In this document: one piece after another, positions 8,735 to 61,920 of the stretch
Position numbering within the stretch: the first letter of the stretch is position 1
Layout: every line of letters starts with the position of its first letter
DNA from: Neobacillus paridis
Lineage (GTDB): Bacteria > Bacillota > Bacilli > Bacillales > Cytobacillaceae
DNA: 64,000 nucleotides
Direction: 5' to 3'
Assembly: GCF_016765675.1 (NCBI RefSeq)
Contig: NZ_JAESWB010000181.1
Span: forward strand, 62,001-126,000
Program-made: the position numbers and the translations under genes
The notes under the pieces: model-generated
The model's input: the letters and a program-made list of their open reading frames with translations, nothing else
Databases searched by the model: none
What the model was told of the DNA's origin: nothing

Positions 8735-8915
8735 ATCGGTTTGTCCTATAGGTCCTCCTATGGGACAGTTCGACTCTTTTTTCACCCGCTTGTGTCCCAT
8801 AGAGCTTTGCTATGGGACACTTCTACTCTTTTTCCACACAGTTTTGTCCCATAGGATTTCCCTATGGGACAGTTCGATACATTTGCTGAATCGTTTTGTC
8901 TGATAGACATTCCGC
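8735..8915. repeat. 52-nt tandem array of TGTCCCATAG hairpins
   Basis: Units start TGTCC(C/T)ATAG at 8743, 8794 and 8846, with a degenerate TGTCTGATAG at 8898 (steps 51, 52, 52). The first three contain a palindrome TGTCCCATAG-N6/7-CTATGGGACA, followed by a spacer near GTTCGACTCTTTTT. The array fills the convergent gap between the nos lipoprotein and the sugar dehydrogenase. It could act as a multi-hairpin transcription stop. Confidence 0.85.
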
Positions 8916-10029: not shown

Positions 10030-10320
10030 CCCCTACAATTTCCAAGCTCCTTTAATACTTCATCCGCCTGGTGAAGGACATTTCCCCTATATTTTATGAT
10101 TCTTTTGTCCTTCATCCACCTGATGAAAGACATTTCCCCTAATTTCCAAGCTCCTTTTGTCCTTCATCCACCCGATGAAAGACATTTCCCCTAATTTCCA
10201 AGCTCCTTTTGTCCTTCATCCACCCGATGAAAGACATTTCCCCCAAATTCCAAGACCGTTTTGTCCTTTATTCTTCTTAAAAAAGACTATAATCGGTTTG
10301 TCCTTCATTCTTTGAAATTC
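10030..10320. repeat. 52-nt tandem array of GTCCTTCATC hairpins
   Basis: TGTCC cores start at 10106, 10158, 10210 and 10262 (exact 52-nt steps). A degenerate unit (TAATACTTCATCC) lies one step earlier at about 10053, and a last core at 10299. Each unit has the palindrome GTCCTTCATC-cacc-GATGAAAGAC and then TTTCCCCTAATTTCCAAGC. The array lies upstream of the sugar dehydrogenase start and downstream of the HAD gene end. Confidence 0.85.
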
Positions 10321-23125: not shown

Positions 23126-24981
23126 TCATTTAGCGCGCTTTCGACATTTTTAAATTGGTTGAAAAACATTTGATAATAGCGGCCTTGTTTTTTCATTAAT
23201 TCCTCATGGCTGCCTTTTTCAATGATTTCGCCGTGATCAATGACCATGATCATATCAGCGTCACGAATCGTGTTAAGGCGGTGGGCAATAATGAAGCTCG
23301 TGCGATTCTCCATCAGCGCTAACAATGCTTTCTGAATATGAAGCTCAGTCCGGGTGTCAATGCTGCTGGTCGCCTCATCCAAAATCAACAGTGCCGGTTT
23401 CGCCAGCATCACCCGGGCGATTGCTAACAGCTGCCGCTCGCCTTGGCTCAAGTTGCCGCCGTTTTCCGCAAGCACTGTCTCATATTGCTGCGGCAGGCGT
23501 TTAATAAACCCGGCGGCACCCGCCATCCGGGCCGCTTTTTCCACCTCTTCATCGGTCGCATCCGGCTTACCGTATTTAATATTTTCCTTTACCGTCCCGG
23601 AAAATAAGTACGTATCCTGGAGCACAAAACCAAAGCAGCGCCGCAGCGAATCTCTCGTATATTCGCGGATATCGCGGCCATCTAACAAGATCCTGCCGCT
23701 GGTGACATCATAAAACCTCGTCAACAGATTGACGACCGTTGTTTTTCCCGCACCGGTCGGCCCGACAAGCGCAATGCTGGTGCCAACCTCAGCTTCAAAG
23801 CTGACATTTTTCAAAATCGGCACATCGGAGCGATAGCCGAAGCTGACGTTATCAAAGACGACATGACCCTGCGGATGCTGAAGCGGCACCGCGTTCGCCA
23901 GGTCGACGGATTCCTCCTCTTCATCCATCATTTCAAATACCCGCTCGGCACCGGCAACACCCGACTGAAGGATGTTAAAGATGTTGGCAATGTCATTAAG
24001 CGGGCGGACGAATTGCCTTGAATAAGTAATGAAGCTGGCGATCGCACCAATCGTGATCTGACCTTTGACAGCAAGGACACCACCGACCATTGCGACAATT
24101 GCCAGGCCCAGATTGTTAATGACGTTCATAATCGGCATCAGAAACCCCGACCAAATCTGCGCCTTAAGGCCGACCTCACGGAGTCTGGCATTGACGCTGT
24201 CAAACTCTTCGACTACTTTATCCTCATGGTTAAAGGCTTTCACGACCTCGATCCCGGAAATCGTCTCCTCGATCTGTCCGTTTAACTGGCCAAGCTCGAC
24301 CTGCTGCTGTTTAAACAAGACGCTGGTGCGCTTGGCAATCGTCCGCGTCAGCAAATAGACAAGCGGAATCGTGATCATGCTGGCCAAGGTTAACAACGGG
24401 CTTAAGTAAAGCATCATCAGGAAGGAACCGGTCAGAACAACGAGCCCCGACATTAATTGCGTCGTCGACTGCGAGATGGTGTTGCTGACATTGTCAACGT
24501 CATTGGACAGCCGGCTCATCAGCTCCCCATGTGTGCGGGAATCGAAAAAAGCGACCGGGAGCTTTTGCAGCTTGTGAAAAATGGCATCGCGCAAATTTTT
24601 CACAATCCTTCCAGCTACGCCCGCCATCAGCCAGCCTTGCATCAGCGTAAGCACAGCATCAGCGATATAGGCGATTGCCAGTACCAGGATCATTACTTCC
24701 AAAAGCGCGAAATCAACTTTTCCATGTTTCAACGTCATTGCATCAATCGCCTTCCCAATCAGGAATGGGTTGAGCAACATCAGCACCGCGTCAATCAGAA
24801 TAAAGCTGAAAATCAGCGTGAGCATCTTTCTCTCCTTGCCGATATAATCCCAAAGCCGTTTCAGGGTGCCGCTGAAGTTTTTCGGCTTGACAACCGGGCC
24901 ACGGCGATGATGGGCCCCGCCCGGTCTTAATGGTGGAGGCGTGACCGGATTATTCTGCTGCTGTGTGGTTGTTTTCGCCAT
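23122..24981 (-). CDS. yfiC: YfiC-like subunit of heterodimeric ABC exporter
   Basis: 619 residues: a poorly conserved N-terminal extension rich in Pro/Gly/His (PPPLRPGGAHHRRGP), six transmembrane helices, and an ATPase with Walker A GPTGAGKT, signature NLSQGERQLLAIARVM, Walker B LLILDEATSSID and IIAHRLNTI. The catalytic Glu after Walker B is intact. The partner gene has Asp there, so the pair forms an asymmetric heterodimer with one canonical and one degenerate ATP site, as in BmrCD and TM287/288. The likely role is export of lipophilic drugs or lipids. The start overlaps the end of yfiB by 32 nt. Confidence 0.88.
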   Translation of the reverse strand: MAKTTTQQQNNPVTPPPLRPGGAHHRRGPVVKPKNFSGTLKRLWDYIGKERKMLTLIFSFILIDAVLMLLNPFLIGKAIDAMTLKHGKVDFALLEVMILVLAIAYIADAVLTLMQGWLMAGVAGRIVKNLRDAIFHKLQKLPVAFFDSRTHGELMSRLSNDVDNVSNTISQSTTQLMSGLVVLTGSFLMMLYLSPLLTLASMITIPLVYLLTRTIAKRTSVLFKQQQVELGQLNGQIEETISGIEVVKAFNHEDKVVEEFDSVNARLREVGLKAQIWSGFLMPIMNVINNLGLAIVAMVGGVLAVKGQITIGAIASFITYSRQFVRPLNDIANIFNILQSGVAGAERVFEMMDEEEESVDLANAVPLQHPQGHVVFDNVSFGYRSDVPILKNVSFEAEVGTSIALVGPTGAGKTTVVNLLTRFYDVTSGRILLDGRDIREYTRDSLRRCFGFVLQDTYLFSGTVKENIKYGKPDATDEEVEKAARMAGAAGFIKRLPQQYETVLAENGGNLSQGERQLLAIARVMLAKPALLILDEATSSIDTRTELHIQKALLALMENRTSFIIAHRLNTIRDADMIMVIDHGEIIEKGSHEELMKKQGRYYQMFFNQFKNVESALNE

Positions 24982-26713
24982 CTACGGACACCTCCTTGCC
25001 AATTTGCGAGCGGTAAATTTCTTGATAAACGCGACAATTTTTCAATAATTCCTGATGCGTTCCCACCCCGGCGATTTCACCATGGTCGAGAACGACGATT
25101 TTATCAGCATCCAGCATGGAGGTGATCCGCTGGGCAATGATGATACAGGTCAGCCCCTTGGCATATTGTTTTAAGGCCTGTTTGATTTTGGCCTCAGTGT
25201 TGACATCAACGGCACTTGTGCTGTCATCGAGGATCAGAATTTCCGGTTTTTTCACCAATGCCCTGGCAATTGCCAGCCGCTGCTTTTGGCCGCCGGAAAA
25301 ATTAACCCCGCCTTGGCCGATCGCGGTCCCATAACCTTCCGGCGTGGCGCTGATAAACTTATGCGCCCCGGCAATCCTGGCCGCTTCGACGATTTCTTCC
25401 TGTGTCGCATTTTCTTTCCCCCAGCGAATATTTTCAGCAACACTGCCGGTAAATAAAGTATTCTTTTGCGGTACGAAGGCAATTTTTTTCCGAAGTGCTC
25501 TCGGGCTTACGGTCGCAACATCTACCCCGCCCACCTTTACTGTACCGGATGTGGCATCATAGAAGCGGGGAATTAGCCCGACTAGGGTACTTTTGCCGGA
25601 CCCGGTTGAGCCGATGATGCCCACCGTTTCCCCCGGGAGGATCGTCAGGCTGATATCTTTTAGCACCGGCTCAGCTCCTTCTGTCTCATAAGAGAAACTG
25701 ACGTGTTCAAAATCAATCCGGCCTGTTTGCGTACCGCTCTGTGCTAGCGTGTTCTTGCTCCATGTCTGTTTGCTTTCTTCGGAAAAAACGTCGCCGATTC
25801 TTCCCGCCGACGCCTTCGCGCGGACAAACATATTAAACACCATTGTGATCATCATCAATGATGTTAAAATTTGTGTCATATAATTGATAAACGCCACAAT
25901 ATGGCCGACCTGGATGCTGCCATTATCAACGCCCAAGCCGCCGATCCAAATGACGACAACAATCCCGAGATTGACGGTCAGCATGATCGCCGGGCTGAAA
26001 ATCGACATCAGTCGGCTGGCGGCAATCGAGCGACTTTTAAACTCATCGTTTACCCTAGTAAACTTGTTGATTTCCACCTCGAAACGATTAAACGCCTTAA
26101 CGACGCGGACTCCTGATAAATATTCGCGCATCACCAGGTTCACTCCGTCCAACGCCTGTTGCACTTTGGAAAATAACGGGAAGCCCAACCTAAGGTTGAT
26201 GATGATCAGAATGGCGACAAGCGGCACAACGACCGCCAGGACAACCGAGAGTTGCAGATTCAGCCGGGTAGCCATCACCAGCCCGCCAAGTGCAAGCAGC
26301 GGTGCCTTGACAAAGATGCGCATTAATCCGTTGACAAAAATCTGCACCTGGGTGACATCATTGGTCAGCCTAGTGATGAGCGACGCGCGGTCAAATTGAT
26401 CGAGATTTTTAAATGCCAGGGATTGAATTTTTTTATACAAATCGGATCTTAATTCGGCGCCAAAATTTTGTGAAACGATGCTGGCTAGGATACTCCGCGT
26501 TGACGCGGCGACCGCTCCAAATGCGGTAACGAGCAGCATCACCCCACCCATTTTCAATACGTAGTGGATGTCATTATGGGCCACGCCCTCGTCGATTACC
26601 TTGGCAATAATCGTCGGCTGCAGTAAATCACAAATCGCCTCTAACGTAAGAAAAAACACGGCAATGCTGAAAGACAGCCAATATTTTTTGATGTATTTTC
26701 CTAAATAACTCAT
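24950..26713 (-). CDS. yfiB: YfiB-like subunit of heterodimeric ABC exporter
   Basis: 587 residues: six transmembrane helices then an ATPase with Walker A GSTGSGKS, signature NFSGGQKQRLAIARAL, and Walker B ILILDDSTSAVD in which the catalytic Glu is replaced by Asp; the switch His is changed to Gln (IIIAQRITSML). These two changes mark the degenerate half of a heterodimeric exporter. It is the first gene of the operon. Confidence 0.88.
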   Translation of the reverse strand: MSYLGKYIKKYWLSFSIAVFFLTLEAICDLLQPTIIAKVIDEGVAHNDIHYVLKMGGVMLLVTAFGAVAASTRSILASIVSQNFGAELRSDLYKKIQSLAFKNLDQFDRASLITRLTNDVTQVQIFVNGLMRIFVKAPLLALGGLVMATRLNLQLSVVLAVVVPLVAILIIINLRLGFPLFSKVQQALDGVNLVMREYLSGVRVVKAFNRFEVEINKFTRVNDEFKSRSIAASRLMSIFSPAIMLTVNLGIVVVIWIGGLGVDNGSIQVGHIVAFINYMTQILTSLMMITMVFNMFVRAKASAGRIGDVFSEESKQTWSKNTLAQSGTQTGRIDFEHVSFSYETEGAEPVLKDISLTILPGETVGIIGSTGSGKSTLVGLIPRFYDATSGTVKVGGVDVATVSPRALRKKIAFVPQKNTLFTGSVAENIRWGKENATQEEIVEAARIAGAHKFISATPEGYGTAIGQGGVNFSGGQKQRLAIARALVKKPEILILDDSTSAVDVNTEAKIKQALKQYAKGLTCIIIAQRITSMLDADKIVVLDHGEIAGVGTHQELLKNCRVYQEIYRSQIGKEVSVDGENNHTAAE

Positions 26714-26929
26714 AGAGTTTCTCTCCTCAAAAAGTCTTTCAACATTTCATGAAGTGGAACCTCAATCAGTGGAGTACGCCTTATACCCCACCAAAACTTT
26801 GTTTAACGAAAGTTTTGCGGTGAGGGCTACACTCCCGGAAAAAGGGATAAAGCTATTATAATGATGTTTTTTGGTGATATACAAATATTTGAGCCGATTA
26901 TGTGGGGCCACATATAGCTGTGTTACTTG

Positions 26930-27310
26930 CGGATACACTCTCTAATTGGCAGGTAACCGGTTTCAATCGACGATATAGCCATCTCAATTGGCGGAAGGCG
27001 CTCTCCTATTGGCGACATTGCCAATTCAACTGGCGTTATAGCTGCTTCAATTGGCGATTGGCGCACTTTAATTGGCGCAAACTCATTCAACTGGCGAAAA
27101 GCCCTCTCCTATTGGCGACATTGCCAATTCAACTGGCGACATAGCTGCTTCAATTGGCGATAGACGCACTTCAATTGGCGCAAACTCATTCAACTGGCGA
27201 AAAGCCCTCTCCTATTGGCGACATTGCCAATTCAACTGGCGACATAGCTGCTTCAATTGGCGCAAACTCATTCAATTGGCGGGATAACATCCTCAATTGG
27301 CGATTGATGG
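26930..27310. repeat. Large 21-nt array, core CAATTGGCG, with 103-nt superperiod
   Basis: About 17 cores (AATTGGC, AACTGGC or TATTGGC) start at 26944, 26965, 26986, 27007, 27028, 27049, 27070, 27089, 27110, 27131, 27152, 27173, 27192, 27213, 27234, 27255, 27274 and 27295. Steps are 21 nt except three of 19 nt, always after GCGCAAACTCATTC. Four 21s plus one 19 give a 103-nt superperiod visible as near-identical copies (27077 vs 27180). The array lies between yfiB and the ASCH gene. Open frames here are period artefacts. Confidence 0.9.
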
Positions 27311-27349
27311 CTTTTTTCTAGCGGCTGTCATGTTTACAGTAGCCCCGCC

Positions 27350-27387
27350 ATAAAAAATCAAGTCCACAGTGCAAAGATCTGTGGACT
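27350..27387 (-). terminator. Terminator of the ASCH gene
   Basis: AGTCCACAG-N9-CTGTGGACT stem with TTGATTTTTTA following on the minus strand. Confidence 0.75.
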
Positions 27388-27402
27388 AACCGAACCCTTC
27401 TA

Positions 27403-27744
27403 TTAAACTGCGCTAAATTCATGCACCCAGACTCTCATTTGCGGCAGCCATGGCATACCTGGATGAATTGCGAGGATTGACTGTTTATATTCCTCTACAG
27501 AAGCAAAGCCCTCGCGGCGCGCATCATCCTCTGTCAGCTCACCCAAGCTTTGGGAATACACCTTATCAACAACAAACTGACGTCCCTCCAGGGTCATGAT
27601 TTCTCCCGGGTCGGCATAGCGGCCATTGCGGCGGGTGGCTGTTTTTTCCCCGGCAAGCACTTTCTTGACATCCTTTTCTAACGTCACTAAGCGCTCAATT
27701 GTACACGTTTTTGGCGGCAACGATTGATGATTATTTTGCGACAT
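27403..27744 (-). CDS. ASCH-domain protein
   Basis: 113 residues. The ASCH fold signature is seen in KKVLAGEKTATRRNGRYADPG (basic, substrate-facing) and VDKVYSQSLGELTEDDARREGF. ASCH domains resemble PUA domains and may bind RNA or modified nucleosides; some small members hydrolyse N4-acetylcytidine. The ATG follows GGGAGGAATTTAGG. It is a single gene; the function here is unknown. Confidence 0.82.
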   Translation of the reverse strand: MSQNNHQSLPPKTCTIERLVTLEKDVKKVLAGEKTATRRNGRYADPGEIMTLEGRQFVVDKVYSQSLGELTEDDARREGFASVEEYKQSILAIHPGMPWLPQMRVWVHEFSAV

Positions 27745-27866
27745 CCTAAATTCCTCCCTTTTCCAACCTATTTATATATTATATTAACACTATTATTAAT
27801 GTATTAAACACTATTAATATGTATAAAAAATCCTGTTTATTCCCATCAAGTTGTTGCCCCCGGAAC

Positions 27867-27904
27867 CAAAAAAGAAGGATGCCTACCACTTAGGAGCATC
27901 CTTC
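27867..27904 (-). terminator. Terminator of the TetR/ABC-2 operon
   Basis: GAAGGATGC-N13-GCATCCTTC then TTTTTT on the minus strand, 87 nt after the last permease gene. Confidence 0.85.
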
Positions 27905-27990
27905 AACTTCTAATCCATCCCAGCCAACAAGCCCACCACATCATCACAATATAGAAGTTTTCTAACATTACTGCTGCTTCATTTTTGTGA

Positions 27991-28797
27991 TTATATTTGC
28001 AAATCTCGTTTTTGATAAAAATGGTAAGTAATGGCAATTAGAATCGTAACCACTACAATGGTGATCGCAACAAACGTAGTTTCCAGCGTACCGTCCGCCA
28101 AGACCCTTTTTGCTTCAAAATATTTAAATGGCGTTACATATTGCAGCCATTCAATTTTTTCATTCAAATCGACGGCGATGGAGAGGAGATACGTTAGTAG
28201 CAGTAGTACCGTTCCCAGTGCGGCCGCACGCTTCGGCCGTTTTCCCACCGCCGCAATCACCGCGCCAACTGCCAGAAAAATGAGCTGCACTAGAAACATC
28301 CCCGCCATTAATAAGTAAATATCATCAAGCTGTTCCCCGGTTTGCTGATAATGACTCACCATTGCCAGCGATAGAACTAAGGTTACCAGATTAAAGATGA
28401 CCACATTTACCAAAGCCGCCAGCAGCTTTGAACTGATAATCCGGGTACGTGAGATTGGCTTTGCCATCAGAAATTCCGCTGTTTTGTCGCGCTCTTCCTT
28501 GGCAATAATATTAGCGCCCAGCATCAACGCATGAATTGCCGCCATCAGCAACAAGTAGTAAAACAGCATGCCGTAAAACCCGATAGCTGTCGACAAATCC
28601 AAGTCTCCCGTCCCAATAATTGCCTGGAGCGACTTCGGCATCTGCGAAATCAATTCGTTAATCGATTGACCCGATGAACTGTATCCTTCATATTTCGCCA
28701 TTCCGGCGACCACCATGAACAGAAGCCCGATTCCCCAAATGATTAACGACTTCCGATTCGCCTTCATTTCCCGCCAAAATAGATTCACTGTCCACAC
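27991..28797 (-). CDS. ABC-2 type permease (second of pair)
   Basis: 268 residues with six hydrophobic segments. It begins NLFWREMKANRKSLIIWGIG and carries the loop ANIIAKEERDKTAEFLMAKPISRTRII shared with the neighbouring permease, showing common origin. It exports an unknown substrate with the ATPase gene upstream. It is separated from that permease gene by only 3 nt. Confidence 0.85.
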   Translation of the reverse strand: MWTVNLFWREMKANRKSLIIWGIGLLFMVVAGMAKYEGYSSSGQSINELISQMPKSLQAIIGTGDLDLSTAIGFYGMLFYYLLLMAAIHALMLGANIIAKEERDKTAEFLMAKPISRTRIISSKLLAALVNVVIFNLVTLVLSLAMVSHYQQTGEQLDDIYLLMAGMFLVQLIFLAVGAVIAAVGKRPKRAAALGTVLLLLTYLLSIAVDLNEKIEWLQYVTPFKYFEAKRVLADGTLETTFVAITIVVVTILIAITYHFYQKRDLQI

Positions 28798-28800
28798 CCC

Positions 28801-29598
28801 CTACACCGCATGAATATCTTTTTTCGCATAAATGAAATAGCTTGCCGTGACCGCGACAATGATAAAAATAACTTCAATGACGATAAACCGAATTTCATAG
28901 GTTTGATGTTTGCTAATATAACCCGGATCATAATACTTAAACGGTGTCAGATAGCGCACCGCCTTATCACCAATGACCGATCCGAACATATTGAGAATGA
29001 AAAAACCAAACACCGTTCCCAGTGACAGCGGCAACACCGATTTTATTTTTGGAACAAGGACGGAGATGAGGATGCCAAGTGCCAAAAACATGCATTCAAC
29101 GAAAAACGCCGTCAGCGAAATCAACAGGAATGCCTTGGTGTCAAATGACCTCTCGCTGACCGCCTGCGCCGCTACTAACGCGGCCATGATAACTACCAGA
29201 TTGGACAAAATGAGCGAAACGACAGCCGCGAGCAGCTTCGCGGTAACAATTTGCGTTCGCGTGACCGGCTTGGTTAGCAGGAAATCCGCCGTTTTCTCAC
29301 GGGTTTCTTTGGATAGCATCGAGACTCCCAGATTCATTGCCTGAATCGCACCACATAACACCACATAGGTGAAAACATACGAGTAAAATCCTAACAGTGA
29401 GGTGATCGAATCAAGTGACATCCCGATGGCTTTGCGCAAGGATTCTGGATAGTTTTCCAGCACCTTTTTAAACGCCTCCGAATCCTTGGCGATGGACGGA
29501 AACAGAGCCATAAACAGGACGACAACCGCCACTAATGACAGCGTCCAAATGATCGTCGACTTGCGATTATCCTTTAATTCATGGAGAAATATATTCAT
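28801..29598 (-). CDS. ABC-2 type permease (first of pair)
   Basis: 265 residues, about six membrane segments, starting NIFLHELKDNRKSTIIWTLS. It has the loop SMLSKETREKTADFLLTKPVTRTQI. Paralogue of the next gene; together they probably form a heterodimeric membrane unit. It starts 3 nt after the ATPase gene, so is operonic. Confidence 0.85.
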   Translation of the reverse strand: MNIFLHELKDNRKSTIIWTLSLVAVVVLFMALFPSIAKDSEAFKKVLENYPESLRKAIGMSLDSITSLLGFYSYVFTYVVLCGAIQAMNLGVSMLSKETREKTADFLLTKPVTRTQIVTAKLLAAVVSLILSNLVVIMAALVAAQAVSERSFDTKAFLLISLTAFFVECMFLALGILISVLVPKIKSVLPLSLGTVFGFFILNMFGSVIGDKAVRYLTPFKYYDPGYISKHQTYEIRFIVIEVIFIIVAVTASYFIYAKKDIHAV

Positions 29599-29601
29599 CG
29601 C

Positions 29602-30486
29602 TCAATTCCCCTTTTCATAGTAATGCATGAAAATCTCCTCTAAATCCGGTTCCTCAATCCACAGGTTTAACAGCTCCAGCTGCGCCAATTTTTGCAGCAT
29701 TAAATTGATATTGCCGCTGTAAAGAAAGCTTACGTGCAGGCCATCAATTTCCAAATTCTGCACCCCAGCAATTTGTAAAAAGCCCTGCGGCATGGGCGCC
29801 TTCGTCTCCAGCTTAAAGCGTTTATGGTTGTTTTCCTTTAATGTACTGATTTTTTCGACCTTGACGAGTTCGCCTTCCTTAATAATCGCCACGCGGTCGC
29901 ACATTTTCTGCACCTCGCTTAAGATATGGGAGGAAAAGAGAATCGTCGTCCCTTTCTTATTTTCCTCTTTTAACAGATCGAAAAATTTCTGCTGCATCAG
30001 CGGGTCGAGACCGCTCGTCGGCTCATCAAGAATGATCAGCTTCGGCTCATGGAGCAGTCCTTGAACGATACCCACTTTCTTCTTGTTGCCAAACGACAAG
30101 TCGTCAATTTTTTTGTTGAGGTCAAGGTCGAGCAGCTCCGCCAATTGTTTGATCCGCTGACTGCAATCCTTTTTATAAAAACTGCCTGAATATTTCAGCA
30201 GGTCCTTAACTTTCATGTTGTCATAATAGAACACTTCCGACGGCAGGTAGCCGATTTCCTTTTTGATTTCCGGGGCAAACTTGACCGAGTCCTTGCCAAA
30301 AATCGTTGCGCTGCCGCTTGTCGGATAAATCAGCGACAGCATCGTGCGGATCGTCGTTGACTTGCCAGCGCCATTCGGGCCGATAAAACCAAAAATCTCG
30401 CCTTCCTCCACCGTAAAGCTGATGTTGGAAATCCCTCTTGCCTTGCCATACGTTTTTGTCAGATTATTTAACTCAATCACATTCAT
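29602..30486 (-). CDS. ABC transporter ATPase
   Basis: 294 residues. Walker A GPNGAGKS, signature LSFGNKKKVGIVQGLL, Walker B LIILDEPTSGLDP and switch His in LFSSHILSE, with a C-terminal extension of about 80 residues typical of drug or bacteriocin exporters (CcmA/BcrA-like). It energises the two permeases downstream and follows the TetR gene by about 15 nt. Confidence 0.88.
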   Translation of the reverse strand: MNVIELNNLTKTYGKARGISNISFTVEEGEIFGFIGPNGAGKSTTIRTMLSLIYPTSGSATIFGKDSVKFAPEIKKEIGYLPSEVFYYDNMKVKDLLKYSGSFYKKDCSQRIKQLAELLDLDLNKKIDDLSFGNKKKVGIVQGLLHEPKLIILDEPTSGLDPLMQQKFFDLLKEENKKGTTILFSSHILSEVQKMCDRVAIIKEGELVKVEKISTLKENNHKRFKLETKAPMPQGFLQIAGVQNLEIDGLHVSFLYSGNINLMLQKLAQLELLNLWIEEPDLEEIFMHYYEKGN

Positions 30487-30501
30487 CGCCGGGAGCCCCC
30501 C

Positions 30502-31125
30502 TTATTTATAGAAAACTTTAATTAATACTTCAAAATACTGTTCTGCCTTCATGCTGACCTGTTGATAATCAATTTCATGCGTTGGTAAAAACTTGGCTTT
30601 GTTTAGCTCCTCATCACTTAATTTTTCAAACGTCCAGGTAATGATTTTTAAGATTTTTTCCAAATCAATATCATCGCGGAATTTCGTGATATCAATATTT
30701 TCGTACATTTTGGCGAAGTTGGTTTCCAGCAGTTGCTGATACTTTTCGGCAAACTCCGCTTTAATTTCACGGGAATCCTCTATATAGACCGCTTGGAGAA
30801 AATGGAAAAGAGCCGGATAAACAGAGAGCAGCTCCATTTTAATGGTTACCGCCGCGCGCATTCTTTTGAAAAAATCAGTCTCGGATAAATCAATTTTTTG
30901 ATAAAACTCCGTAGCAATCAGCTCATAGCAATAGTCAAACAGAAATAAATATAATTGCTTTTTGTTCTGAAAATAGTGAAACAAGAGCCCTTTTGAGATC
31001 CCCGCTTCTTTGACAATTTCATTCGTCGAGGCACTATCATATCCTTTCTGGGCAAACTCCTTAATCGCCGCGTTAATGATGCGGTCTTGTTTTTCCTTAT
31101 CTAAGTTGAGAAATTTCGAAAACAC
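30502..31125 (-). CDS. TetR-family repressor of the ABC-2 operon
   Basis: 207 residues from the GTG at 31125, which follows AGGAGGAGTGCCGAG. N-terminal HTH: IINAAIKEFAQKGYDSAS, TNEIVKEAGISKGLLFHYFQNKKQLY. The C-terminal ligand domain is unassigned. First gene of the operon with the ABC-2 transporter; two matched palindromes lie in its promoter, so it probably represses its own operon until an inducer, likely the exported compound, binds. Confidence 0.88.
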   Translation of the reverse strand: MFSKFLNLDKEKQDRIINAAIKEFAQKGYDSASTNEIVKEAGISKGLLFHYFQNKKQLYLFLFDYCYELIATEFYQKIDLSETDFFKRMRAAVTIKMELLSVYPALFHFLQAVYIEDSREIKAEFAEKYQQLLETNFAKMYENIDITKFRDDIDLEKILKIITWTFEKLSDEELNKAKFLPTHEIDYQQVSMKAEQYFEVLIKVFYK

Positions 31126-31140
31126 CTCGGCACTCCTCCT

Positions 31141-31191
31141 TTGACCACAACGGTCAATTGTAGTATATTCTCGATTGACTCCACTGGTCAA
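31141..31191. promoter_or_regulatory. Twin TetR operators TTGACY-N5-GGTCAA
   Basis: TTGACC-ACAAC-GGTCAA at 31141-31157 and TTGACT-CCACT-GGTCAA at 31175-31191: same half-sites, same spacer length, 34 bp centre to centre. They lie directly upstream of the GTG start of the TetR gene. Confidence 0.8.
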
Positions 31192-31280
31192 TAGATAGTT
31201 AAGGATATTTTTTACAAAATCATGAACGATATAGTTTAGACTTCGGGAATATGCTACGATGCAAGGTGGAGGTGATTGAC

Positions 31281-32249
31281 ATTATTATTAAAAATCGCGA
31301 TTTTTCCTTAAAATTAGCAGGGTTAGCTGCCGCGCGACACCGCTTATCCGCCGAGCATCCGATTCTGCCCGTGTTAGCAGCAAAGCAAGCGGCCATGGAA
31401 GCCGGGATCGGCGGCGAGGATCGGGTGGCAGAGGTCTTGTCCCAATTTTCATTTCCCTTCGACATCCACATTTTTCACGATTTATCCCCTTCAGCCGATG
31501 AAAAATTCCAAACGGACACACATTGTTTAACCCCATGGTATGGCTTGGTGTTAGAGGTGAAAAATATCAGCGGGATTCTGGAATTTAACGAAAATCCACC
31601 GCAATTAATCAGTACCAAGGAGGATGGCTGTCAATATGGCTACGAAAGCCCCGTTAGTCAATTACAACGCAATTGCGAGTTTTTACGTGAATGGTTTTTG
31701 CACCGTGGCATCCAACTCCCGATTTATGGCGCAGTCGTCCTTGCATACCCGAAACAAATTGTGAAAACTGCCCCACCCCGGACGAAACTGTTATTCCCCA
31801 ACATGATTCCCACTTATCTAAAATCGATCCCGCAGCAGGGGCAAAAATTAACTCCCGAAACGTTTAACTGGCTGTCTGCCGAGCTGCTTAAGAGTCATCA
31901 ACGCTATCTTCCCAAGCCTATTTGTGAAACCTATAAACTTCGTTGGAGCGACTTTCGAACAGGCGTAGGATGTATAACGTGTGGCAGGCTGGGAATGATT
32001 AAGCAGCCGAGAACATGGGTATGCCCTTTTTGCCAGGCAACCGATCCCCTGGCACATCAACGAGCCTTGCTCGAATGGTATTTGATTTTTAAGAGAACGA
32101 TCACCAATCGCGAGTGCCGGGAGTTTTTGCATGTGAATGATATTCATATAGCAAAACGGATTTTGCAAAATATGAGCTTTAAAAGTGAGGGGGATTATCG
32201 TTACCGGAAGTATATTATGAATATCAAAAACTTTAACCTATTTGATTGA
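31281..32249 (+). CDS. NERD-domain protein with C-terminal zinc ribbon
   Basis: About 323 residues if it starts near 31281. NERD (nuclease-related) domain: AGIGGEDRVAEVLSQF, IFHDLSPSADEKFQTDTHCL, GLVLEVKNISGILEF, matching the restriction-endonuclease-like core (E, D and E-x-K). A zinc ribbon C-ITCGRL...CPFCQ follows at about residue 235-265, then a helical tail. The ribosome site AAGGTGGAGGTG (31263-31274) is followed by no ATG, GTG or TTG at a usable distance, but by ATT codons encoding the IIIKNR start that matches the MIIKKR start I recall for relatives. A rare ATT start at 31281-31287 is possible; GTG 31266/31272 or ATG 31251 are alternatives. Confidence 0.75.
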   Translation: MIIKNRDFSLKLAGLAAARHRLSAEHPILPVLAAKQAAMEAGIGGEDRVAEVLSQFSFPFDIHIFHDLSPSADEKFQTDTHCLTPWYGLVLEVKNISGILEFNENPPQLISTKEDGCQYGYESPVSQLQRNCEFLREWFLHRGIQLPIYGAVVLAYPKQIVKTAPPRTKLLFPNMIPTYLKSIPQQGQKLTPETFNWLSAELLKSHQRYLPKPICETYKLRWSDFRTGVGCITCGRLGMIKQPRTWVCPFCQATDPLAHQRALLEWYLIFKRTITNRECREFLHVNDIHIAKRILQNMSFKSEGDYRYRKYIMNIKNFNLFD

Positions 32250-32261
32250 TAAAAATTAGCT

Positions 32262-32890
32262 GCGCCAATTGGAGGGGGGTCTCGCCAGTTGATTTACTTC
32301 CCGCCAATTGGAGGGCAGCTTTCGCCAATTGATGATACTTTCTCGCCAGTTGGAGAGGGATTTGCGCCAGTTGGAGCCCACTTCCCGCCAATTGATTTAC
32401 TTCGCGCCAATTGGAGGGCGACTTTCGCCAATTGATGATGCTTTCTCGCCAGTTGGAGCCCGCTTTGCACCAGTTGATTTACCTCCCACCAATTGGAGGG
32501 CAGCTTTCGCCAATTGATGATACTTTCTCGCCAGTTGGAGAGGGATTTGCGCCAATTGGAGCCCACTTTGCGCCAGTTGATTTACTTCCCGCCAATTGGA
32601 GGGCGACTTTCGCCAATTGATGATGCTTTCTCGCCAGTTGGAGAGGGATTTGCGCCAGTTGGAGCCCACTTTGCGCCAGTTGATTTACTTCCCGCCAATT
32701 GGAGGGCGACTTTCGCTAATTGATGATGCTTTCTCGCCAGTTGGAGAGGACTTTGCGCCAGTTGGAGCCCGCTTTGCACCAGTTGATTTACTTCCCACCA
32801 ATTGGAGGGCAGCTTTCGCCAATTGATGATACTTTCTCGCCAGTTGGAGAGGGCTTTGCGCCAATTGGAGCCCACTTCTCGCCAATTGAT
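32262..32890. repeat. Largest 21-nt array, core CGCCAATTGG, 103-nt superperiod
   Basis: About 30 cores CGCC(A/G)(A/G)TTG(G/A) between 32267 and 32890. Checked positions 32306, 32327, 32348, 32369, 32390 step by 21, with 19-nt steps into 32306 and 32409 after the TTGATTTACTTC unit. Near-identical blocks recur at 103 nt (e.g. 32308/32411, 32493/32596). Unit types alternate: GGAGGGCAGCTTT, GATGATACTTTCT, GGAGAGGGATTTG, GGAGCCCACTT. It lies between the NERD gene and pepT. Confidence 0.9.
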
Positions 32891-32992
32891 AACACGCGCC
32901 CCTGTGTCAACACGTATTCCAAAAAATGTGTATCCGCTCCCTTAAAGTGATATGATAATCATGTACATAACTTAGTAAGGGAGTGCTGCACA

Positions 32993-34228
32993 TTGAAAGA
33001 TGAACTGATCAAAAGATTTACCTCGTATGTGAAGGTGGATACGCAGTCTAATGAAGACAGTGAAACTTGTCCGTCAACCGAGGGCCAGTGGACGCTGCTT
33101 CGGATGCTGGTGGATGAATTAAAGGAAATTGGCATGGAAGAGGTGACGATTGACGACAACGGTTATGTGATGGCGACCTTGCCAGCGAACACGGACAGAA
33201 ACGTGCCCACCATCGGCTTCCTCGCCCATGTTGACACGGCGACCGACTTCACTGGAAAAAATGTCAACCCGCAAATTCATGAAAATTACGATGGCGGCGA
33301 CATTACCTTAAACGAGGGATTAAATGTCATCCTGTCACCAAAGGATTTTCCGAACCTTAAAAACTACAAAGGTCATACGCTGATCACAACTGACGGCACG
33401 ACGCTACTGGGCGCGGATAACAAGGCTGGGGTAACGGAAATCATGACCGCGATGCACTATCTGATTCAGCACCCGGAAATCAAGCACGGCAAGGTGCGCG
33501 TGGCCTTCACGCCGGATGAGGAAATTGGCCGCGGGCCGCATAAGTTTGACGTTGCAGCGTTCAATGCCAAGTTTGCCTATACGGTTGACGGCGGACCGCT
33601 CGGGGAGCTGGAATATGAAAGCTTTAACGCGGCAGCGGCAAAAATCACCATCAAGGGAAACAATATTCACCCGGGTTCAGCCAAGGATAAAATGGTGAAC
33701 TCGATGAAAATTGGAATGGAGCTACACAGCCAACTGCCAGAACAAGAGGCGCCAGAGCATACGGAAAATTATGAAGGCTTCTACCACCTGATTTCATTCA
33801 ACGGCGATGTCGAACAGACAAAGCTTTATTATATTATCCGCGACCATGACCGCGAGAATTTTAACAATAGAAAAGTAACGATCGAAAACATCGTCAATGA
33901 TTTAAGGAAAAAATATGGTGCTGACAATATTCAGCTTGAACTGAAAGATCAATATTACAACATGCGTGAAAAAATCGAACCGGTAAAGGAAATCGTTGAA
34001 ATCGCGCAGCAGGCAATGGAAAACCTTGATATCAAGCCAATCATTCAGCCAATCCGCGGCGGTACGGACGGCTCACAATTATCATTCATGGGGCTGCCGA
34101 CACCGAATATCTTCACCGGCGGGGAAAATTTCCACGGTAAATATGAATTTGCTTCCGTCGAAAATATGATCAAAGCCACTCAAACTATCATTGAAATTAT
34201 CAAACTATTTGAACAAAGAGCAAACTAA
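32993..34228 (+). CDS. pepT: Peptidase T (tripeptide aminopeptidase)
   Basis: 411 residues, M20 metallopeptidase. Zinc-site motifs are [45 protein letters not shown] and the C-terminal [21 protein letters not shown] and [13 protein letters not shown]. It releases the N-terminal residue from tripeptides in the cytoplasm. TTG start at 32993 follows AAGGGAGTG. In some bacteria pepT is Fnr-dependent, but no Fnr box is seen here. Confidence 0.95.
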
Positions 34229-34238
34229 GCGCAGCAGC

Positions 34239-34271
34239 AAAAAGCTAACCTGCAACTCAGGTTAGCTTTTT
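34239..34271. terminator. Terminator between convergent pepT and kinase genes
   Basis: AAAAAGCTAACCTG-caact-CAGGTTAGCTTTTT; strong stem with A and T tracts, bidirectional. Confidence 0.88.
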
Positions 34272-35187
34272 AACATGCACGCTGACACAGCTGTTCTAAA
34301 CATCCAATGGTCTCCAATCGCTGCCTTTCCAGCTGTTCTTTGGACCAGTTTCCCGCATCGGCCTGCAGATCACGCCCAATCAATAACAGCATCCATAATG
34401 AAAACACTGCGGCGAACAGGTAATATTCCTTTTTAAAAACCTCCCTGTCAACCGGCTGATCAAGCTGATCAAGATAACAATCGAGGGCCGCTTCCCGCAG
34501 TTTGCAGGTCATCTTTTTCGAAAAAACAGGGTGCGCCATATCGATGACATGAAATAGATCCCAATAAGGCAGGTTCACATGGGCATGCTCCCAGTCAAGC
34601 ACGATCAAGCGACCGCCGGCAAGGGCAAAATTGCCTTGATGCAGGTCCCCGTGGGATACCACCGGCTTCATGGTAAACTCGAAATCATCAATGAGCCGGA
34701 GCTGCTTTTGGGAAAACAACTTCCGGCTCGCCCAGACTTCCACGGCCATTTCTTCAATTCCCGGCTTTATCCCGGTTACCGGAATATCCGGAAAGCCATC
34801 CAAAGAAAGCGAGTGCCACAGTGCGGCCGACCGCACCGCAGCCAGCAAGCTTTCCTCGCGAAACTCATGAGACAGCGGACCGAGGTCCTCGAGAATTAAC
34901 CAGCTGTACTGAGGGTTATCGCTAATCCGATAGGCAATCATTTTAGGAAAAACGACGGGAAAATGGGGGAGAATCTGTTCATACACCCACACTTCCCGAC
35001 CTAATTGTGCATTGTTCGTTAACGGTTTAAAGATGTACGATTCCCCTGCAGGCATAAAAAACCTTTCCACCGAGCGGCCGTTGTTGCCGCGGTAAAGGAT
35101 TTCTCTTCCGGCAATCAGTCCCCTATTCAAAGTACCATCTTCTAGTACAATTGCCGCTGGCAGCCGCTCGGTCCCACTCTCAGTCAT
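34270..35187 (-). CDS. APH/choline-kinase-family phosphotransferase
   Basis: 305 residues from ATG 35187, spaced 9 nt from GGCGGAGG. Kinase core: a lysine-type segment SYIFKPL, catalytic loop VSHGDLHQGNFAL (HGDxHxxN) and metal site LIVLDWEHAH. The family includes aminoglycoside and homoserine or choline kinases; nothing here sets the substrate, so resistance should not be assumed. The start overlaps the end of a 36-codon upstream ORF. Confidence 0.78.
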   Translation of the reverse strand: MTESGTERLPAAIVLEDGTLNRGLIAGREILYRGNNGRSVERFFMPAGESYIFKPLTNNAQLGREVWVYEQILPHFPVVFPKMIAYRISDNPQYSWLILEDLGPLSHEFREESLLAAVRSAALWHSLSLDGFPDIPVTGIKPGIEEMAVEVWASRKLFSQKQLRLIDDFEFTMKPVVSHGDLHQGNFALAGGRLIVLDWEHAHVNLPYWDLFHVIDMAHPVFSKKMTCKLREAALDCYLDQLDQPVDREVFKKEYYLFAAVFSLWMLLLIGRDLQADAGNWSKEQLERQRLETIGCLEQLCQRAC

Positions 35188-35290
35188 CACCGCAAGCCTC
35201 CGCCAAAGCGCCGGCAGGGGAAACCGCCCAGATAGCAACCCCATGTAACTGCGGGCCGCCTTCGCAGCGTTTTAAATTCATCAAGATCAT
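35180..35290 (-). CDS. Candidate 36-residue leader peptide upstream of the kinase gene
   Basis: ATG 35290 follows GGGGGAG at 5 nt, a stronger ribosome site than many in the window. The frame encodes 36 residues with RCEGGPQLHG and AVSPAGALAEACGDD. Its stop overlaps the kinase start by 8 nt, an arrangement that would couple translation. No family is recognised; it may also mark the remains of a longer N-terminus lost by frameshift. Confidence 0.35.
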   Translation of the reverse strand: MILMNLKRCEGGPQLHGVAIWAVSPAGALAEACGDD

Positions 35291-35399
35291 ACAAACTCCC
35301 CCTTTTCGTGAGGTTTCAAGAGCCGACAAAGATAGAAGGGTGATAACCCTCCTTTCATACATATGTATGTTGGAAAGGTTTATATCCTCAAGCAGCAAA

Positions 35400-35580
35400 T
35401 TTTAATGCAGTCAAAACCTATCTTCAAGCCAGTAATTTTTTTTGCGAACCGAATCCTTCCTTCAAGCCAGTAATTTTTTTGCGGATCGACCCCTTTCTTC
35501 ATTGCCAGTAATTTTTAAAAGCGGTCGTCAATCCCTTTTTCAAAAAACCTGCTTTTTAAAAGCCAGCATCAATCAAAAAA
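35400..35580. repeat. Short 38-nt array, core GCCAGTAATTTTT
   Basis: GCCAGTAATTTTT starts at 35428, 35466 and 35504 (38-nt steps), with degenerate copies further right. It lies in the gap between the kinase start and the gltC end. Confidence 0.6.
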
Positions 35581-36486
35581 CTAATTTTTATAGCGGTCGA
35601 GAATGCTAAAGAATTCTTTAAGAAACTCATAAAATAACATTTCTGCCGGCAGCAGGGAGCGGTCTGCCGGAATAATCACCCCGACCGTGCGGCTGACATC
35701 AGGCTCGGTAATCGGAATTTTGACGGTCGAGCGCGGCAGACCGTCAATCAGCGTAATTTCAGGGATCAGCGTCACCCCGAGACCAGCCGAGACTAATCCT
35801 TTAATTGCATCAATATCTTCTCCCTCAAAGGCAACCTGTGGGGCAAACCCCAGCTGGGCGCAGGCATCGACGATTATTTCCCGCAAAATATAGCCGTCCG
35901 GAAATAACACAAAGGCGGCGTCCCGCAATTCGTTTAACTTCAGGAGCCGCTTATCGGCAAGAGGGTGAGACTGCGGCAGCAGAGCGACCATTTTTTCCGT
36001 AAACAGGGTTCGGCCTTTAATCTTTTTTTCCCTTTTCGGCACCGGGCCAAGGAGCGCCAAATTGAAATCACCTCTAGCCACACCAGCAATTAAGTTGGCG
36101 TAAGAGCTCTGGTTCAGCTTAAATTTAACCTGAGGGTAGCGTTCACGAAAGGCCGAAATGGCGGTGGGCAAGGTATAAGCGGCAAGACTGCTTGGGAAGC
36201 CCACACGGATCGTCCCTTTTTCGGGATCAATCTGTTCCTCCACTTCCCGTTTGGCATTTTCAATCAGCTTCATGGCCTGCTCCATCTGTCCTAAAAACAT
36301 TTCCCCAATCGGGGTTAGCTTAACATTCCTTCCTTCGCGGAAAAACAAGCTGACCCCCAGCTCTTCTTCCAAATTAAAAATTTGCCTGCTGACAGCAGAT
36401 TGTGCAACATGCAGGGCATGGGCAGCCTCGGTTACATGCTCTCTTTTGGCCACCTCTATGAAATATTGAATCTGTCTCAACTCCAT
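35581..36486 (-). CDS. gltC: LysR-family regulator, GltC-like
   Basis: 301 residues. N-terminal HTH MELRQIQYFIEVAKREHVTE and AQSAVSRQIFNLEEELGV, then the effector domain with GFPSSLAAYTLPTAISAF, DFNLALLGPVP, FVLFPDGYILRE and EGEDIDAIKGLVSAGLGVTL, matching B. subtilis GltC throughout as I recall it. GltC activates glutamate synthase genes and interacts with glutamate dehydrogenase. Here it is divergent from gdhA, not gltAB, so it may control glutamate dehydrogenase directly. The name is by similarity. Confidence 0.75.
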   Translation of the reverse strand: MELRQIQYFIEVAKREHVTEAAHALHVAQSAVSRQIFNLEEELGVSLFFREGRNVKLTPIGEMFLGQMEQAMKLIENAKREVEEQIDPEKGTIRVGFPSSLAAYTLPTAISAFRERYPQVKFKLNQSSYANLIAGVARGDFNLALLGPVPKREKKIKGRTLFTEKMVALLPQSHPLADKRLLKLNELRDAAFVLFPDGYILREIIVDACAQLGFAPQVAFEGEDIDAIKGLVSAGLGVTLIPEITLIDGLPRSTVKIPITEPDVSRTVGVIIPADRSLLPAEMLFYEFLKEFFSILDRYKN

Positions 36487-36549
36487 CTGCCCGCCACTCC
36501 TTTCTGGAAAATAACCCTCGGTTCCTTTAAGCTAGCTTGAAACAAAATG

Positions 36550-36695
36550 TTTTCATTCCTTATGATGTGATGCAGCGTTGATTTTTGCGCTGCATGGTGG
36601 ACTACAAAAAAGGAAAAAATTTTACCAACGTCACATCCATTCCACTACGCCTTATGAACCACCCTAACGGACTCGCCAATCGGCGAGTTATCACT
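36550..36695 (-). repeat. Dispersed intergenic element, inverted copy in the gltC-gdhA gap
   Basis: Read on the minus strand it starts GATAACTCGCCGATTGGCGA and continues GTCCGTTAGGGTGG, TTCATAAGGCGTAGTGG. The far end carries the hairpin ATGCAGCG-N10-CGCTGCAT (36570-36595), whose counterpart at 38659-38683 has GTGCAGCGC/GCGCTGCAC; the closing pair covaries (A-T versus G-C). It occupies the shared gltC/gdhA promoter region. Confidence 0.6.
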
Positions 36696-36801
36696 TATCT
36701 CATTTCGGCATTAAACCTATCTATTATTCATATTGCTTAGATTATTCATCCATTATAAAATAAATCGACGCCAATAAAAAGAATTTTCAGTAAACATTTA
36801 A

Positions 36802-38214
<1,413 letters not shown>

Positions 38215-40119: not shown

Positions 40120-40290
40120 TGGACTCCAATTGGCAGAAGGCACTTTTCAATTGGCGAATCAGTAGCTTCAATTGGCGTTAAGCCCTCTCCTATTGGCGGG
40201 AAACCCTCTTCTATTGGCGAAAAGCGTCCTCCTACTGGCGGGAAACCCTCTCCTATTGGCGCTAAACCCTCCCCAATTGGCGGAATGGCT
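40120..40290. repeat. 21-nt array, core YATTGGCG, eight exact units
   Basis: Cores AATTGGC/TATTGGC/TACTGGC start at 40128, 40149, 40170, 40191, 40212, 40233, 40254 and 40275, all exactly 21 nt apart. The linkers are variants of GGAAACCCTCTC. It lies between the start of the transpeptidase gene and the end of the RCC1 gene. Confidence 0.92.
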
Positions 40291-49284: not shown

Positions 49285-49460
49285 AGTGACCCCCTTCAAT
49301 TAGCAGGATCCCTTCTCCTATTGGCGAGTTACTCTCCCCAATTGGCGAAAAACCCACTTCTATTGGCGAAAACAGCACCCCAATTGGCGAAAAACCTTCT
49401 CCTATTGGCGATAACAACACCCCAATTGGCGAAAACCCCTCTCCTATTGGTGGGCGGATA
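49285..49460. repeat. 21-nt array, core YATTGGCG, eight exact units
   Basis: Cores start at 49298, 49319, 49340, 49361, 49382, 49403, 49424 and 49445, all 21 nt apart, alternating CCTATTGGCG and CCCAATTGGCG with AAAAC linkers. It lies between pspA and the GH25 gene. Confidence 0.92.
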
Positions 49461-61361: not shown

Positions 61362-61609
61362 TGTTTAACCCCCATTTTTATATTTCACCTATTTATTATA
61401 GTAGGAAAGGGTCTAAGAATGAAAGCTAGATTTCAGGAATGTAGTAAGAAAGGTATGTTGGTCGTATTCCCCGTCTTCCCAGGGGTAAATTTATTTGTGT
61501 GAACTTTTTAAATATTATGTTAAAATAGGCCTTATTTGAGATACGAGGGGATCGATATGAACTTTTTGTCGGTTATTTCTTTTTTGGGGTTTGACCGAAA
61601 TGATAATAA

Positions 61610-61920
61610 AATGTGCGGTTCGGGCAACTAGACGGCCTCTACTTGACTAAAATGTTGATAATATCTTCGGTTCAGGCAACTAGACCGCTCCTACTGGACC
61701 GAAACTTTGAAAATATCTTCAGTTCGAGCAACTAGACCGCTCCTACTGGACCGAAATGTTGATAATATCTTCGGTTCAGGCAACTAGACCGCTCCTACTG
61801 GACTGAAATGATGAAAATATCTTCGGTTCGGGCAACTAGACCGCCTCTACTTGACCGAAATGATGAAAATATCTTCAGTTCGGGCAGCTAGACCGCTCCT
61901 ACCGAACCAAGATGATCGAA
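61610..61920. repeat. 52-nt tandem array, core GGTTCRGGCAACTAGACCG
   Basis: GCAACTAGAC (GCAGCTAGAC in the last) starts at 61624, 61676, 61728, 61780, 61832 and 61884, all exactly 52 nt apart. Each unit has an imperfect palindrome TTCGGTTCAG-N16-CTGGACCGAA and a linker ATGTTGATAATATC. Located between the divergent DUF3298 and acyltransferase genes. Confidence 0.92.

Follow-up and report, generated by a model that had tools for sequence, protein, structure and literature searches.

The REP and BIME elements are dispersed short extragenic repeats associated with RAYT (REP-associated tyrosine) transposases, and plasmid iterons with their Rep protein, like the parS/ParB clusters, are direct repeats placed beside the gene of their binding protein. 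In Bacillus, Subirana and Messeguer described in 2021 two classes of tandem repeats, of 20-21 nt and 52 nt, that keep a constant size (PMC8161180). The available text of their paper terms these repeats of constant size and variable sequence enigmatic, only guesses at a partner and states, for the 52-nt class, that there is no evidence for a Cas-like one (PMC8161180); transcription of the latter class, from RNA-seq of B. coagulans, is reported in the available part of a further paper (PMC8625621). SmdA of Staphylococcus aureus, which has the NERD domain in common with the protein described below, is described as a cell morphology determinant, and the available text of the report on it mentions no repeat arrays (PMC9040797). 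The literature searched shows no trace of a NERD domain paired with tandem repeats.

The window analysed here, a 64,000-nt stretch of a Neobacillus paridis contig, codes for a 332-aa NERD-domain protein (31251-32249, + strand; PF08378, E=3e-11) whose stop codon lies 13 nt before the start of an array of 31 short cores at a 21-nt pitch (array B, 32263-32888, + strand), which we propose as its cognate array. The downstream neighbour pepT (32993-34228, + strand) marks the orthologous locus in other species. Array B belongs to the published class of tandem repeats of 20-21 nt with constant size and variable sequence, which is defined by at least four direct repeats, at least 60% of them of equal length to within 1 nt: 24 of its 30 steps measure 20-21 nt, it is non-coding and its short core is common to several arrays of the genome. 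With the repeats of Subirana and Messeguer, as the available text describes them, it shares the sizes, the short conserved core, the non-coding nature, the many loci per genome and the turnover between strains; it departs from their account, which in that text names no partner protein, in that NERD genes here appear linked to both classes and a candidate residue-base code to the 21-nt class. As with REP/BIME elements and RAYTs, the repeats are dispersed and extragenic, none in our sample lies between divergent genes, and the gene of a protein predicted to act on DNA is flanked by repeats, NERD paralogs often having arrays on both sides. Unlike in that system, the 21-nt units are direct and phased, and the protein is of the NERD type with a putative nuclease motif rather than a tyrosine transposase. 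Direct repeats at about two helical turns, adjoining the gene of the proposed binder, are also reminiscent of iterons and parS clusters, from which the NERD arrays differ in being chromosomal, multi-copy and dispersed, and in the protein family involved; no replication or partition gene was recognised by eye among the ORFs around array B. The constant core, variable spacer, fixed pitch and nuclease-type gene alongside recall CRISPR arrays; however, the core is of 9 nt, the 12-nt linkers recur in blocks and the arrays are scattered over many loci, and no cas genes were recognised by eye among the ORFs at 24000-37000. The arrays themselves are of a known kind, and it is the paired NERD-array system that appears new.

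The cores of array B and their spacing are far beyond chance. Twenty-six of the 31 cores read CGCCA(A/G)TTG, four read CACCA(A/G)TTG and one CGCTAATTG, and the 30 steps measure 21 nt in 23 cases, 19 nt in six and 20 nt in one, as anticipated by a preliminary description of the array as 21-nt steps interspersed with 19-nt ones. All the 19-nt units follow the pattern C(G/A)CCA(A/G)TTGATTTAC(C/T)TC(C/G); the final G of the CGCCAATTGG named in that description varies. Pairs of the CGCCAAT(A/T)G core at 21-nt spacing occur 52 times in the N. paridis genome, with no match in the reversed control, and are present in 10 of 61 genus genomes, where the reversed control gives two matches in G001. From one 19-nt unit to the next the distance is 103, 82, 103, 103 and 103 nt. 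The 103-nt superperiod claimed earlier therefore holds in four of the five intervals and breaks in the one of 82 nt; Tandem Repeats Finder reports a period of 103 (5.7 copies, 83% match, 32302-32890). The linkers repeat in block order, what was duplicated being sets of four or five units that each include one 19-nt unit; we infer that both this unit and the 103-nt period are an inherited structure of the locus, copied via block duplication.

A dispersed array of the same core class (array A, 26985-27302, − strand) lies in the ASCH-ABC gap and comprises 16 cores, again with 19-nt steps (Tandem Repeats Finder: period 103, 2.9 copies, 92%, 26984-27281). The "opposite-orientation core" by which array B had been set apart from it proves to be a difference of strand only, both arrays using the same core. 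With the 19-nt units in register, the linkers of the two match at 27 of the 50 positions scored, a value that 10 of the 120 unit orders reach or exceed (the true order counted), and random units from other arrays of the same genome give a mean agreement of 21 (5-95% range 16-27); this amounts to neither clear block homology nor clear independence. What survives of the suggested shared plan is the 19-nt step, which 25 of the 28 readable species have at the orthologous NERD locus. The figure of 103 is not special, because some species have 82-nt blocks at this locus (G014 and G009, by eye).

The NERD protein scores 44.2 bits against the PF08378 profile (cut-off 22.1) over residues 52-164, which places it within the family. 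Codons 56-104 (31416-31562, + strand) contain a putative nuclease-type motif of the PD-(D/E)xK kind, E56, D89 and E102-x-K104; in 68 homologs E56, D89 and K104 are present throughout, and position 102 is acidic in 67. Cysteines 258 and 261 are found in all 68, 241 in 64 and 244 in 65, and probably form a zinc ribbon. Further on, codons 298-303 (32142-32159, + strand) specify I298 H299 I300 A301 K302 R303; within this C-terminus, which probably reads DNA, we propose 298, 299 and 302 as the residues that recognise the bases. The AlphaFold model of the protein is poor (mean pLDDT 35, two sequences), and at this low confidence it displays a helix at 295-306 and, after it, two strands, an arrangement like that of a winged helix; we regard such a fold as suggested by this weak secondary structure. 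A known defence system or named family was considered and rejected: PADLOC and NCBIfam give nothing for the protein, the PADLOC models yielding no family at E up to 1, and a sequence search against solved structures returned nothing meaningful.

Across species, the NERD-pepT locus was sampled through the 30 best NERD matches among 60 genomes, 28 of them readable (G001 and G002 were left out). An array of at least four units is present in all 28, and pepT is seen in 26, the sequence of G016 and G031 stopping before it. In Neobacillus rhizosphaerae (L039), the NERD-pepT gap contains an array of similar pitch whose core is CGACAGTAA. By bases 3-4 of the core, the 28 orthologs fall into the classes CT (seven), CA (six), CC, AC and AG (five each). 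A looser two-core pattern, TATCCGNNARTN10TATCCGNNART, occurs in 39 of 60 genus genomes and in none of the reversed controls, the N. paridis genome itself having no match; a three-core version is found in 39 of 193 genomes of the family, belonging to 3 of 25 genera, with reversed-control matches in a single genome (G178).

The association extends to NERD paralogs. Forty of these, taken from NERD matches in the genus genomes, were compared with 252 control genes that code for 250-420 aa and lie in forty regions of 20 kb; half of these regions are spaced evenly along G014, and the rest are arbitrary stretches, one from each of several other contigs. All genes were called by simple ORF calling. 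A detector requiring a fixed CG core initially picked up arrays at 21 of the 40, and at none of the 40 in reversed sequence. Because other paralogs read by eye had other cores, a core-agnostic detector was used (8-mer, one mismatch, steps of 19-22, at least four units). With it, an array lies within 400 nt upstream of 34 of the 40 paralogs vs 0 of 252 controls (Fisher 1e-38) and within 300 nt downstream of 22 of 40 vs 1 of 252 (Fisher 4e-21); an upstream array of at least four units is absent in six of the 40. Most flanking arrays have the orientation of the gene, and often the core is the same on both sides; the upstream and downstream cores differ in 6 of the 21 paralogs whose core is of the CGnnnnT form. 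In other genera of the family, such a NERD protein is present in 39 of 43 chosen genomes, and arrays of at least four units occur at 22 of 30 NERD loci (16 upstream, 8 downstream, 2 both).

The cores of these arrays vary in step with the protein. In the sequences compared, core bases 3, 4 and 5 co-vary with residues 299, 302 and 298, respectively, of the predicted C-terminal helix. For base 4, the top column of 191 variable ones in 27 orthologs is residue 302 (z 9.6), and for base 3 it is residue 299 (z 5.4). Class CA goes with Y299 N302 in six of six orthologs and class AC with Q299 K302 in five of five; class AG has H299 with T302 (four) or I302 (one), class CC has K302 with H299 (four) or D299 (one), class CT is mixed at both residues, and H299 is present with three core classes. 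The 15 paralogs used for training, a set without the 19 of 40 lacking a CGnnnnT core by the detector and without six with differing flank cores, by themselves place residue 298 first of 211 columns for base 5 and residue 302 only tenth of 211 for base 4. In the orthologs and these paralogs pooled, where bases 3, 5 and 6 are confounded with subfamily, residue 302 comes first of 263 for base 4. For base 6, no helix column ranks top. Relatedness explains part of this covariation and not all of it, because whole-sequence nearest proteins have the same core class in 11 of 28 cases, against an average of 4.9 with shuffled labels; in one tree from which the helix was left out, base 4 switches between purine and pyrimidine at least eight times.

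Rules for bases 4 and 5 were fixed before 20 further NERD loci were taken. In the 42 training loci, K302 accompanies a pyrimidine at base 4 in 25 and a residue other than lysine accompanies a purine in 14, leaving three exceptions (G005, G015 and L125). Twelve of the 20 held-out loci were eligible (six had no R303, one no CGnnnnT core and one fewer than three units, this last requirement having been introduced at scoring), and they were scored by eye on the downstream array, as stated beforehand. The base-4 rule is correct in 12 of these 12 loci, which are partly orthologs of one another or of training loci and so are not all independent. The base-5 rule, which relied on residue 299, is correct in 8 of 12 and was rejected, the four failures all being I298 D299 G302 with CGCAAAT; a post hoc reading of base 5 by residue 298 alone (I with A, R with C, others with G) fits all 12. 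In the 12 held-out loci alone, residues 302 (base 4) and 298 (base 5) each rank first of 165 columns, and in the 27 training and held-out paralogs together each ranks first of 205 (z 10.8 and 9.4). The upstream arrays of two held-out loci, L180 and L183, do not fit their protein.

Arrays with the array-B core are also dispersed over the genome. In the window, two further ones lie at 40127-40282 (8 cores, − strand) and 49318-49452 (7 cores, − strand), and four of the five window arrays with a 21-nt period and more than two copies have this core. The parts of the N. paridis genome that were examined hold 14 arrays of at least three cores, located by means of the array-B core, so that to call their core the same would be circular. 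In 16 genomes, 31 of the 64 dispersed arrays listed match the NERD-pepT array of their species at bases 3-4, where 9.5 are expected, and 33 do not; a mixed array was scored by its main or first core, and the CGCCAATAG arrays of G026, found with another pattern, stand outside the 64 and would not match. None of 20,000 species permutations of the dispersed-array classes reaches 31. An idea that each species has a single core was rejected, several core classes occurring within one genome: G026 has CGAGAGT at its NERD-pepT locus, yet many CGCCAATAG arrays elsewhere. In this genome, two CGCCAATAG arrays lie on either side of a broken NERD gene with one internal TGA (L057, 4461-5762), and arrays may thus outlive their partner gene. 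An intact NERD gene adjoins only 2 of 37 CGCCAAT arrays from three genomes, the broken gene at L057 coming in addition (the profile behind this count contained pepT sequence from one mis-picked ORF, and its two pepT rows are false). The association is strong in the direction from NERD gene to array.

Because NERD genes and arrays co-occur and the core co-varies with the helix, we take the NERD protein to be the likely partner of the arrays: array B is very probably a series of phased sites at which the NERD-domain protein of the gene just upstream binds. The earlier suggestion that arrays A and B share a ligand gains support, since the core co-varies with residues of the adjacent NERD protein and array A has the same core. 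That another protein binds the arrays, such as a nucleoid protein as Subirana and Messeguer supposed in the available text (PMC8161180), with NERD merely linked, seems improbable. The 21-bp phasing would suit many DNA-binding proteins, as would the lack of any of the 37 arrays in the gaps between divergent genes. Such gaps make up 22.9% of intergenic bases in an 800-kb sample, and 0 of 37 has P 7e-5 on the assumption that arrays are independent, though a few share one gap and gap types come from simple ORF calling. What tells against another binder is that the best covarying NERD columns fall within five residues of one predicted helix, and that a second NERD subfamily pairs with a second repeat class (see below).

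We attach a similarly small probability to the arrays acting as RNA (a small RNA, a sponge or a 3' UTR structure), on the lines of what is in print for the 52-nt class, whose repeats appear in the B. coagulans RNA-seq as far as the available text goes (PMC8625621). In many species the NERD gene is followed by its array without an obvious terminator (by eye), as an RNA role would have it. Against this, the orientation of the 37 arrays relative to neighbouring genes is variable, a terminator-like hairpin precedes many dispersed arrays (by eye), the folding of 298 nt of array B is unremarkable (z -1.3), Rfam gives no match at its gathering score in the window between 26500 and 33100, and the helix residues track the core; on these grounds an RNA element was rejected.

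About as improbable are neutral minisatellites, produced by replication slippage and unequal exchange and lying near NERD genes for an unrelated reason. Block duplication is indeed visible, edge units of arrays look decayed (by eye), and the available text of PMC8161180 has repeat length and presence differing between strains. Unlinked arrays, however, have the same pitch and core with different linkers, and 48 units sampled from the other N. paridis arrays show an almost invariant core, with variation in most linker columns. The adjacency of arrays to NERD paralogs as opposed to control genes, and the 12 of 12 held-out loci on the covariation, speak further against neutrality. That the 21-nt units encode a 7-residue peptide repeat has a probability close to nil and was rejected: reverse-strand ORFs of 90-97 aa do cross array B, but the frame is lost at the six 19-nt steps and the one 20-nt step, and 19-nt steps recur in most species at the orthologous locus.

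How might the NERD protein act on its array? We propose that it would use a winged helix to bind double-stranded DNA, each 21-bp unit taking up one protomer. As 21 bp are two helix turns, the protomers would all lie on one face of the DNA. The protein could then also bind dispersed arrays of the same core in trans, for example that at 26985-27302, and, less surely, might be an active, sequence-specific nuclease. Two roles for such a protein can be envisaged. In one, it would nick or cut the arrays, and repair would amplify and spread them; in the other, the arrays would serve as docking sites where a dangerous nuclease is safely held, or would control its gene. Gain and loss of dispersed copies at orthologous sites, by which RAYT/REP systems were compared, was found at the one site tested (site A): among 28 readable of 30 species loci, an array is present in three, each with a different core, and none was detected in the other 25. 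Arrays come and go at site A and the array beside the NERD gene stays, as the occupancy of 3 of 28 against 28 of 28 indicates. Amplification by repair fits because of this gain and loss and of the block duplication, and docking or control fits because the position beside the gene is stable; we lean slightly towards amplification.

A second NERD subfamily, whose C-terminus reads KITTN..., KITAN... or KITTQ..., is accompanied by repeats of 52-nt period. Read by eye, these lie directly behind the gene in seven of seven cases, with 2 to about 11 units. On scoring by self-identity (at least 70% at a shift of 49-55), 52-nt arrays are found downstream of 25 of 30 genus loci vs 3 of 262 control genes; the five misses are four loci scored on a wrong short reading frame (L215, L220, L232 and L234) and L222, which reached 0.68. 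When the L215 gene is read as in L203, an array of 52-nt period is present. A class-wide sample of 151 genomes yields a match to the second subfamily in 15, and 13 of 27 loci outside the N. paridis genome pass the 52-nt test. Both published size classes, 20-21 and 52 nt, may be NERD-linked, to judge from these sequences. Eight distant NERD loci in other families have arrays behind the gene with periods of 61-62 nt (L251, L252, L265 and L266) or 40-42 nt (L253, L267, L271 and L272), near three or two times 20-21 nt; the control genes cover the 52-nt period.

Taken further, NERD proteins could represent a large family of nucleases whose sequence specificity follows an evolving residue-base code, and which write, spread and maintain their own target arrays, probably as a self-propagating two-part system, and which repeatedly change specificity and account for both the 20-21-nt and the 52-nt classes. 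We offer this wider reading tentatively, the chances being somewhat against it. We know of no sequence-specific role for the NERD domain, and it would gain one if this were true. A residue-base code obtained from sequence makes the question of the enigmatic repeats' partner directly testable; the specificity switches would offer a natural series for the study of protein-DNA recognition, and there would be a reason for the fixed repeat size despite the drifting sequence.

Several minor observations concern the surroundings of the NERD genes. In many paralogs (e.g. L102, L109 and L116), a stretch like ATTTCGNTAAAATTCGGCAGGA is conserved between the upstream array and the ribosome-binding site (by eye), and it is common to paralogs with different cores. 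At L109, L116, L130 and L137, in four species, an array-flanked NERD gene lies behind the same conserved gene end, which resembles that of pheT, with the core classes CGCTAAT, CGCCGAT, CGCTGAT and CGCTGAT, respectively; this site is a second stable NERD locus. In the window, an array at 446-564 has 21-nt units with a different core (GATATCTACACT), the reverse complement of which is similar to the TTGTAGATATC units that precede a NERD gene of another species (L208); none of the three NERD matches of N. paridis is of the L208 type. Arrays of 52-nt period lie in the window at 8742-8877, 10037-10268 and 61593-61916. The first has a palindromic core, TGTCCCATAG/CTATGGGACA, and the second has the core GTCCTTCAT...ATGAA(A/G)GACATTT, which by eye it shares with the repeats behind one of the second-subfamily NERD genes of N. 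paridis (L203).
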